Program-made: the position numbers and the translations under genes
Shown: one piece after another, positions 12,301 to 15,986 of the stretch
Position numbering within the stretch: the stretch's first letter is position 1
How the letters are laid out: every line of letters begins with the position of its first letter
Assembly: GCF_026343955.1 (NCBI RefSeq)
Contig: NZ_JAPKNI010000004.1
Coordinates: forward strand, 248,001 to 312,000
Direction of reading: 5' to 3'
Length of the DNA: 64,000 bases
Origin: Kaistia defluvii
GTDB taxonomy: Bacteria; Pseudomonadota; Alphaproteobacteria; Rhizobiales; Kaistiaceae
The notes under the pieces: generated by a model
Database searches by the model: none
The model's input: only the letters and a program-made list of their open reading frames with translations
Told to the model about the DNA's origin: nothing

Positions 12301-13743
12301 ATGCAGATGCCGAGTCAGTATCAAGATTATCATCCCATCCCCCGCCAGAGCCTGGTCTCTCACCTTCCCGCGCCCCCCATGCCGGAGCCCGAGGCGCCTC
12401 GCGCCCGGACGCGCGGCGGCAAGGCCAAGACGCAGATCGTGATTGCCGATGGCGAGCGCGTGCGGGCCATCCATGTCCGCCGGCGCACGATCGCGCTCGG
12501 CGGCGTCTGCCTGCTGCTGCTCTCCACGCTCTACTTCGGGGCCACCGGTTATCTGTTCTTCCGCGACGGCCTGCTCAAGGCGGCCGAGGAGCGGCAGAAC
12601 GCCATCATCGCCTCGCAGAATGTGCGCGAGGCGCGCGAGGTCGAGGCCGCCGCCATCCACGAGGTCCAGATCTCTGCCTATGAGGGACAGGTCGCGGCGC
12701 TGCGCGACAAGGTCGGCAAGCTCAATTCCGAAATCGAGACCCTGAACAAGACGCGCTCCAAGGAGAGCGCCGGCGTCGACGAGAAGGTGCGTAGCCTGCT
12801 CGATCGCCAGAAGGAACTCGAGGCCCGCCAGAAGGCGCTGGCGAAGATTGCCGAGGCGGCTCGCCGCGCCGGACTGGACGTGACGATCCCGCCTCCAGCC
12901 CCGGCCAAGCCGAAGCCCGCCAAGGGACGCAAGGCCGCGCTCGATCCGGAAGTGACGGGCTCGATCTCGCCGGCCGTCGCCAAGCCTTCCGTGCAATTCG
13001 CCGATATGGGCCTGCGCTCGCCGCAGCCGATGCCGCCCATCGTCGTGCCGCGTCTCGATCCGCTCGAGGACAAGATCGTCGCCATGGCGGCCGATCAGGA
13101 TGCACTCGTCGGCGGCCTGATGGCCGGCGTCACCAAGCGGACGCAGAAGATCGACGCGGCGCTGCGCAAGCTCGGGCGCCGCGTGCCGCCGGCCCCGTCG
13201 GGCATGGGGGGGCCGTTCGTGCCGGCCCCGAAGGGCACCATCTCCAGCCCCGCCAGCTTCAAGGCCGACGTGGCTACGCTGACCAACCAGTTCGACCGGC
13301 TCGCCAAGCTCCGCCAGATCGCGCTCGCCCTGCCGCTGAAGCGCCCGCTGGAGGACGCCGACATCAGCTCGGGGTTCGGCACGCGCCGCGACCCGTTCCT
13401 GGGCCGCCTGGCGACGCATACCGGCATCGATTTTCGCGCCATGTCCGGATTGCCGGCCCGCACCGTCAACGCCGGCAAGGTGGTCGCCGCCGCCTTCAAT
13501 GGCGGCTATGGCAATTGCGTCGATGTCGACCATGGCAACGGCGTGATTACGCGCTATGGCCACCTGCGCAGCATCAGCGTCAAAGTCGGCGAACGCGTCG
13601 TCGCCGGCCAGAAGATCGGTACGGTCGGCTCGACCGGCCGCTCGACCGGCCCGCATCTCCACTATGAAATCCGCATCGATGGCGAGCCGATCGACCCGAT
13701 GATCTATCTGCGCGCCGGCCAGGAAATCAACCGCCTGCTCTAG
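12301..13743 (+). CDS. M23 (LytM-type) peptidase with membrane anchor and coiled coil
   Basis: A 480-residue envelope protein. A cytosolic proline-rich N-terminus leads to one transmembrane segment (about 64-87), then a charged coiled coil (about 90-190), a linker and a C-terminal M23 domain (about 355-475). Zinc-site motifs are present: HTGIDF (about 373) and GPHLHYE (about 451-457), so it may be an active endopeptidase that cuts peptidoglycan cross-links. The layout is that of NlpD/EnvC/DipM-like cell-separation factors, though without LysM. The start is ATG 12301; ATG 12307 is an alternative. TTAACC repeats upstream suggest cell-cycle control. Confidence 0.9.
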   Translation: MQMPSQYQDYHPIPRQSLVSHLPAPPMPEPEAPRARTRGGKAKTQIVIADGERVRAIHVRRRTIALGGVCLLLLSTLYFGATGYLFFRDGLLKAAEERQNAIIASQNVREAREVEAAAIHEVQISAYEGQVAALRDKVGKLNSEIETLNKTRSKESAGVDEKVRSLLDRQKELEARQKALAKIAEAARRAGLDVTIPPPAPAKPKPAKGRKAALDPEVTGSISPAVAKPSVQFADMGLRSPQPMPPIVVPRLDPLEDKIVAMAADQDALVGGLMAGVTKRTQKIDAALRKLGRRVPPAPSGMGGPFVPAPKGTISSPASFKADVATLTNQFDRLAKLRQIALALPLKRPLEDADISSGFGTRRDPFLGRLATHTGIDFRAMSGLPARTVNAGKVVAAAFNGGYGNCVDVDHGNGVITRYGHLRSISVKVGERVVAGQKIGTVGSTGRSTGPHLHYEIRIDGEPIDPMIYLRAGQEINRLL

Positions 13744-13757
13744 GCGCGTTGCCCGTT

Positions 13758-14380
13758 TCAGGCGTGAAAGCGCCGGCGATATTCCGCCGGCGACAGCCCG
13801 ACGATCCGCACGAACACCTTCCGGAACGCGCCGGGATCGCCATAGCCGACCTGCCAGGCGACCTCATCCGCCGACAACGCGCTGAACTGAAGCAGTTCGC
13901 GCGCGCGGTTCACCTTGAGCTGCTGCTGGTATCCCGTCGTCGTCAGCCCGGTCGCCTTGCGGAAGCGGCGCAGAAAGGTTCGCTGCTCCAGCCCTTCCTG
14001 CGAGGCGAGCCGCTCGAGCGATGCCTCGCCGTTGGCAAGCCCGTGCAGCCAGTGCTGCGCCTGCAGCACCGCCCTGTCGCCATGATCGAGGCGCGGCACG
14101 AAGGTGCTGTAATAGCGCTGCTCCCTCCCCGGCGGATCGACCAGCAGCACGCGCGCCGTCTCCAGCATCACCTCCGAGCCGAGATAGCGGTCGACCAGCT
14201 TGAGGCCGAGATCCGTCCAGGCCATCAGTCCGCCGGCCGTAACGATATCGCCCTCATGGACGATCAGCCGGTCGAGATCCAGCCGCACGTCGGGAAACCG
14301 CCTGGCAAAGGCCTCACCGAGCCCCCAATGCGTCGTAGCGGTACGGCCCGCGAGCAGGCCGGTTTCGCCCAGCAAGGCGA
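13758..14380 (-). pseudogene. GlxA-type AraC regulator, 5' half deleted
   Basis: The minus strand encodes the last two thirds of a GlxA-family regulator. It contains the end of the DJ-1/PfpI-like domain ([12 protein letters not shown], then [11 protein letters not shown]) and a complete AraC helix-turn-helix pair ending in [13 protein letters not shown]. Upstream of about 14380 the homology stops and the frame runs antisense into an isochorismatase gene, so the start codon, nucleophile-elbow region and promoter are gone. A frame continuing to 14723 is fortuitous. The downstream part is intact, without stops, which suggests that the deletion is recent. Confidence 0.75.
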
Positions 14381-14801
14381 TGCCGTCATCCACATCCAGC
14401 ATCTGGCCACTTCGCCCGAAGCGCCCTTCTTCGTCCCCGGCACAGAGGGCGTGGAGATCCACGCGACCGTCCGGCCGCAGGGCGACGAAACGGTGGTGAC
14501 CAAGCATTTCCCCAACGCATTTCGCGAGACGGTGCTGAAGCAGGTTCTCGACGCACGCGGGATCGATGAGGTGGTGCTCGTCGGCGCGATGAGCCACATG
14601 TGCATCGCCGCGACCGGACGCGCCGCCGCGGACTTCGGCTACAAGACCGTGGTCGTCCACGATGCCTGCGCGACGCGCGCGCTTGAATTCAACGGCACGA
14701 CGGTGCCCGCCGCGCAGGTCCATGCCGCCAACATGGCGGCGCTGGCCTTCGGCTACGCCAAGGTGATCGGCGCGGCCGAGTGGATCGCTGGCGAGGGCTG
14801 A
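14381..14801 (+). pseudogene. Isochorismatase-family cysteine hydrolase, 5' half deleted
   Basis: Plus-strand codons from about 14381 read as the second half of an isochorismatase-like hydrolase. They include [18 protein letters not shown], the KHFPNAF motif, [15 protein letters not shown] with the catalytic-type Cys, and HDACATR, ending in a normal C-terminus. Upstream of that point the same frame is the antisense of the regulator remnant, so the Asp-containing N-terminus and start are missing. In many proteobacteria such a hydrolase is divergent from a GlxA-like regulator (recalled knowledge). One deletion across the shared promoter explains both truncations. Confidence 0.78.
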
Positions 14802-14857
14802 TGTCGTCGGGGGAGACCCGAAAATCCGGGCGGAGCCAAGCCCCGCCCGGAGAGGCG

Positions 14858-15986
14858 TCAGTCGAGGTCCTGGACGTCGGCGGAAGGACCGCCGAGGCGC
14901 TGGGCCAGGGCGGCTTCCATGAAGTCGTTCAGATCGCCGTTCAGCACGTCCTGCGGGCTGGTCGATTCAACGCCGGTGCGCAGATCCTTGACCAGCTGGT
15001 ATGGCTGCATGACGTAGGACCGGATCTGGTGCCCCCAGCCGATGTCCTTCTTGCTGGATTCGGTCGCCATCGCGGCGGCCTCGCGACGCTCCAGCTCGGC
15101 CTCGTAGAGGCGCGAGCGCAGCATGTCCCAGGCCGCGGCCCGGTTCTTGTGCTGCGAGCGTTCGTTCTGGCACTGCACGACGATGCCGGACGGCATGTGC
15201 GTGATACGCACGGCCGAGTCGGTCGTGTTGATGTGCTGGCCACCGGCGCCCTGCGCGCGATAGGTATCGATGCGGCAGTCGCTCTCGTTGATCTCGATCT
15301 CGATCGAATCATCGACGACCGGATAGACCCAGATCGAGGCGAACGAGGTGTGGCGGCGCGCGGCGCTGTCATAGGGCGAGATGCGGACCAGGCGGTGCAC
15401 GCCCGATTCGGTCTTCAGCCAGCCATAGGACTGCTCGCCCTTGACGAGGATGGTGGCCGACTTGATGCCCGCCTCCTCACCGTCATGGACTTCCAGCAGT
15501 TCGACCTTGCGACCGCTCTTCTCGGCCCAGCGCGTATACATGCGCAGCAGGATGTTGGCCCAGTCCTGGCTTTCCGTACCGCCGGCGCCGGCATGCACTT
15601 CGACATAGGTGTCGTTGCCGTCGGCCTCGCCGGACAGCATCGAATTGACCTGGCGCTTGCGGATGTCGCCCTTCAGCGCGACGATCGCGGCCTCGGCCTC
15701 GGCGACGATCGAGGGATCTCCCTCAGCCTCGCCCATCTCGATCAGCTCGATATTGTCCTGAAGCTCGCGCTCGCTGGTCAGGACGGCGTTGATGCCGTCC
15801 TCGAGGCCCTGGCGCTCACGCATCAGCTTCTGCGCCTTCTGGGGATCATCCCAGAAGTTCTGCGTCTCGGACAGGGCGTTCAGTTCGAGCAGGCGTCTCT
15901 GGGCACGATCCCAGTCAAAGATGCCTCCTCAGCAGGGTGATGCCCTGCTTGATCTCGTCGATGATCGTTTCGATCTCGGCTCGCAT
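14858..15986 (-). CDS. prfB: Peptide chain release factor 2, programmed +1 frameshift
   Basis: Releases peptides at UGA and UAA. The zero frame starts at ATG 15986 (MRAEIETI), runs 23 codons and meets an in-frame TGA at 15917-15915. There the minus strand reads AGG AGG CAT CTT TGA C, the classical frameshift site with an internal Shine-Dalgarno sequence. After CTT (15920-15918) the ribosome skips one base to GAC (15916-15914) and continues to the stop at 14858. The product has 375 residues, the normal RF2 length. [15 protein letters not shown] supplies the catalytic GGQ. An annotation starting at the internal Met near 15823 would lose about 54 residues. Expression is self-regulated by RF2 supply. 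Confidence 0.95.

Follow-up and report, generated by a model that had tools for sequence, protein, structure and literature searches.

One deletion of ~585 bp has probably fused a divergent regulator-hydrolase gene pair in a Kaistia lineage

The window analysed here is a stretch of 64,000 nucleotides (C16:248001-312000, contig 16) from the Kaistia genome G000, a 4.90-Mb draft in 21 contigs. It contains the remnants of two divergent genes which, with a probability of about 0.9, were fused by a single deletion of ~585 bp in this Kaistia lineage, and both of which are most likely pseudogenes. Its breakpoints would have fallen within a regulator gene on one side and within the adjacent hydrolase gene on the other, and the pair would thereby have lost its two starts, the promoter region between them and a probable operator consisting of two TGTC boxes 21 bp apart.

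Results

Two truncated genes back to back

The C-terminal remnant of a GlxA/FtrA-type AraC-family regulator occupies positions 13758-14374 on the minus strand, and that of an isochorismatase-fold hydrolase positions 14376-14801 on the plus strand. The two point away from each other and lie between a gene ending at 13743, which judging by its protein sequence encodes an M23-peptidase-like protein, and a minus-strand gene ending at 14858, presumably prfB on the same grounds, which flanks the hydrolase remnant. Within prfB (minus strand, window 15914-15920), an in-frame stop follows RRHL (CTT TGA C) and reading resumes at +1, an arrangement that resembles the programmed +1 frameshift of many bacterial prfB genes.

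Both remnants were assigned by DNA match to the intact locus of genome G009 from the same genus and by Pfam, with the FtrA model as further evidence for the regulator. HTH_18 (PF12833) is found in the minus-strand piece with an E-value of 4.9e-22 and 78.5 bits (cut-off 33.6). The FtrA model, scanned against the remnant alone, covers it from position 116 of 327 only and scores 147.8 bits, below its cut-off of 425. Isochorismatase (PF00857) matches the plus-strand piece (E 2.4e-26) over profile positions 43-155 of 175, short of the whole domain; the 7 other isochorismatase-family genes in G000 all match this profile from position 1 or 2. The stop codons are located at 13758-13760 for the regulator and 14799-14801 for the hydrolase, and neither remnant frame contains an internal stop. 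Hence, the first-pass annotation, which had placed two truncated divergent genes with stop-free 3' parts here, is borne out. The locus is single-copy within G000, where neither gene has a close second copy (next match to the regulator at 25% identity); in G009, the next matches to its hydrolase fall below 40% identity.

Intact relatives place a single gap between the remnants

With positions 13741-14810 as query (E <= 0.001), 28 of the 61 relatives' genomes searched gave a match; within the genus the figure was 12 of 14, and G000 is included in both counts. Comparison with intact loci of close relatives, as the first-pass annotation had advised, shows the pair to be intact in four of the five genus genomes that have it at this locus (G009, G012, G006 and G011); the other 9 of the 14 genus genomes have no match to both halves. 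The two halves are adjacent in all four and the query breaks at 634/636, with the exception of G006, where the left match continues to query position 645. In G009 and G012, the intact proteins are 323 and 184 residues long, the start codons lie 102 bp apart and the same neighbours as in the window are found on both sides. Both neighbours are likewise present in G011, with the peptidase-like gene more distant, while the G006 contig at this locus is only 3884 bases long. G012 carries a second, more distant regulator-hydrolase pair on its contig C10.

An extra gene absent from the window, with a translation resembling a class I methyltransferase, lies between the hydrolase and prfB in G009 (L031:1069-1837). 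By eye, the G012 spacer (L032:1684-1851) seems to keep only the end of this gene, suggesting the spot between hydrolase and prfB is labile.

Both remnants are 93% identical to G009 at the DNA level, with query positions 11-634 and 636-1068 matching separately and 586 bases separating the two matching halves in G009. A single gap of 585 bases net converts the G009 layout into that of the window, and an alignment of the five loci contains a single large gap, in G000 only. The missing stretch comprises regulator codons 1-119, the entire 102-bp intergenic region and hydrolase codons 1-43 of 184, so that both start codons fall inside the gap. In terms of the intact G009 proteins, the regulator remnant spans residues 120-323 plus a fragment of codon 119, and the hydrolase remnant residues 44-184 followed by the stop. 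This agrees with the earlier proposal that one deletion removed both N-termini and their shared promoter; the common loss of homology had been put at about 14376-14386, and the breakpoint at 14374/14376 lies at the edge of that range.

The junction and the possibility of an assembly error

Alignment with G009 places the junction at 14374-14376, with base 14375 fitting neither flank exactly. The 80-base neighbourhoods of the breakpoints in G009 have no word longer than 6 bases in common, and the longest one is out of register; on this basis, recombination between repeats is rejected. As the breakpoints share no repeat, the two ends look to have been joined without one. The same observations bear on a possible misassembly, in which the pair would be intact in the strain and ~585 bases would have been dropped from the sequence. 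The assembly is in draft form, with 21 contigs, but the junction (C16:262374) is located inside a contig that extends to at least 312000, no repeat longer than 6 bases links the breakpoints and G000 contains this locus only once. A junction of this kind, free of repeats and well inside a contig, is evidence against misassembly, making this a very unlikely account.

Consequences for the two proteins

The catalytic residues of the isochorismatase superfamily form an Asp-Lys-Cys triad, to which the aspartate of the DLQND motif belongs. This motif was encoded by the 43 codons now missing, while TKH and SHMC are still present. As judged from its predicted protein, the hydrolase remnant cannot be an enzyme. 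The regulator lacks the first 119 of its 323 codons and is thus not full-length, having lost the N-terminal third; the N-terminal domain of GlxA/FtrA-type regulators is DJ-1/PfpI-like. With the hydrolase lacking DLQND and the regulator its N-terminal third, the sequences suggest that both have most likely lost their function and are most likely pseudogenes.

The deletion is probably recent

Across the pair of remnants, the G000 branch has 19 synonymous changes and 8 nonsynonymous ones, one of the 8 (R to R) being an artefact of a codon changed more than once; the corresponding figures for the G009 branch are 26 and 5, and a further 14 synonymous changes are not attributable to either branch. 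Amino-acid changes are in excess on the G000 branch, but the nonsynonymous to synonymous ratios (8:19 versus 5:26) do not differ significantly (Fisher p 0.34; 0.35 without the artefact), giving no significant support to relaxed selection. Neutrality over the whole of the G000 branch is rejected (likelihood ratio 23.8), so that the deletion is probably recent relative to the divergence of G000 from its closest sampled relative. A two-rate estimate, assuming a nonsynonymous-site fraction of 0.745 and treating the G009 counts as exact, puts the unconstrained share of the G000 branch at 0.085 (95% range 0 to 0.265). The low ratio on the G000 branch would also fit a remnant under continuing selection. 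Of the two possibilities, a late deletion and a remnant under lasting constraint, we prefer the former.

The fused frames are not evidence of new genes

The fusion leaves two long open frames: one of 321 residues on the minus strand (13758-14723), the first part of which is antisense to the hydrolase remnant, and one of 350 residues on the plus strand (13749-14801), the first part of which is antisense to the regulator remnant. The antisense frames over both stretches have 0 stops in G000 and in 4 of 4 intact relatives, with 1 to 8 stops in other frames. This openness is a property of the two GC-rich genes themselves and predates the deletion. As the antisense frames are open in the intact relatives, the fused frames do not constitute evidence of new genes.

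A rival account is an expressed regulator remnant, the minus frame being started inside the hydrolase remnant (for instance at the ATG near 14403 or at 14723) and giving an active, sensor-less HTH regulator. The open minus frame, the intact HTH domain (78.5 bits against 33.6) and a low dN/dS relative to G009 (0.072) would all be consistent with this. However, the antisense part being open in all four intact relatives means that openness needs no selection, and dN/dS is just as low (0.058) for the hydrolase remnant, which should have no enzymatic activity, so that recency explains both. Furthermore, the regulator changes on the G000 branch are mostly at sites invariant in the four relatives (D>H, A>E, E>G). 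An expressed remnant is thus very improbable. It is likewise very improbable that the deletion made a working gene, in which the minus frame would use a promoter in the hydrolase remnant and an overprinted N-terminus would replace the sensor half; if true, the new HTH regulator would act on distant targets without its old signal.

A genuine overlap ancestral to the group would account for a long open frame on each strand, but has a negligible chance of being correct, as none of the 4 intact genus loci is so arranged (the genes are separate and full-length, 102 bp apart at their starts in G009 and G012) and the hydrolase match begins at residue 1 in every one of 80 named loci that encode a related hydrolase, the best-ranked 80 among 544 confirmed matches. 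The first-pass annotation had named full-length homologues sharing such an overlap as the case against a deletion; neither these four loci nor the 80 contain any. Overlapping or overprinted genes are ruled out by the same hydrolase starts together with the open antisense frames of the four intact relatives.

Gene finders usually forbid long overlaps on opposite strands, and automatic annotation is therefore likelier to contain a single call or a pseudogene call here than the two overlapping genes that the first-pass annotation had forecast. Whichever long frame is called, its N-terminal part would be an artefact.

A candidate operator in the lost control region

A looser count finds divergent pairs at 57 of the 80 named loci (best 80 of 544), a figure that overstates the pair because it includes weak matches (32-40% identity) and some genes ~1 kb apart. 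We confined box counts to the 40 of these 80 loci at which the regulator match begins within the first 10 residues and the genes are divergent and within 250 bp, excluding the other 40. Two TGTC words exactly 21 bp apart occur between the divergent genes in 31 of the 40, against a mean of 0.044 and a maximum of 1 in 500 single-base shuffles; the spacing was spotted in the data before being counted. After thinning of similar regions, which removes common ancestry only partly, the pair is found in 23 of 30. It is present in 5 of 5 Kaistia regions, these being G009 (L031:2404-2505), G012, G006, G011 and the second G012 pair, and absent from the G000 remnant. Boxes separated by two helical turns are what an AraC-family operator would be expected to have, and the TGTC pair is thus probably the regulator's predicted site.

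A looser single-box pattern is found at 29 of the 40 loci (shuffle mean 0.11). A degenerate 'half-site' pattern was judged worse than chance, with 1 of 40 loci against a shuffle mean of 0.32 and up to 3. Elsewhere in G000, the operator-like pattern TGTCG-N4-CGCCAAT has three exact matches (L151, L152 and L153, at C1:266278, C12:537634 and C12:573636), compared to 0 for the backwards control.

Discussion

The intact orthologues in place in G009, G012, G006 and G011, with one gap explaining the difference, mark the locus as most likely a pair of deletion pseudogenes. The event is ordinary gene loss by a known kind of decay, with nothing else unusual, and its significance extends little beyond annotation. 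As a by-product, the intact relatives indicate a probable operator for a widespread regulator-hydrolase pair. Literature searches, within the words tried, found no published work on this pair and nothing relevant on divergent-gene deletions or Kaistia pseudogenes.

Divergent GlxA/FtrA-type regulator-hydrolase pairs with the same families, order and orientation are found in Kaistia terrae, Aminobacter, Bradyrhizobium and Psychrobacter, and the hydrolase remnant is 84% identical to its K. terrae counterpart. Unlike these pairs, G000 lacks both N-termini and the region between them. In Microvirga pakistanensis NCCP-1258 (L084:380-1160), the regulator is also N-terminally truncated, matching only from residue 148; in contrast to G000, the adjoining hydrolase is complete, and the truncation is an independent event. 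Deletion pseudogenes of bacterial genomes are open remnants without start and promoter, and those of G000 are likewise open, lack both and are probably recent. They differ from the usual kind in that one event hit two genes, which were broken at once because they are divergent neighbours.
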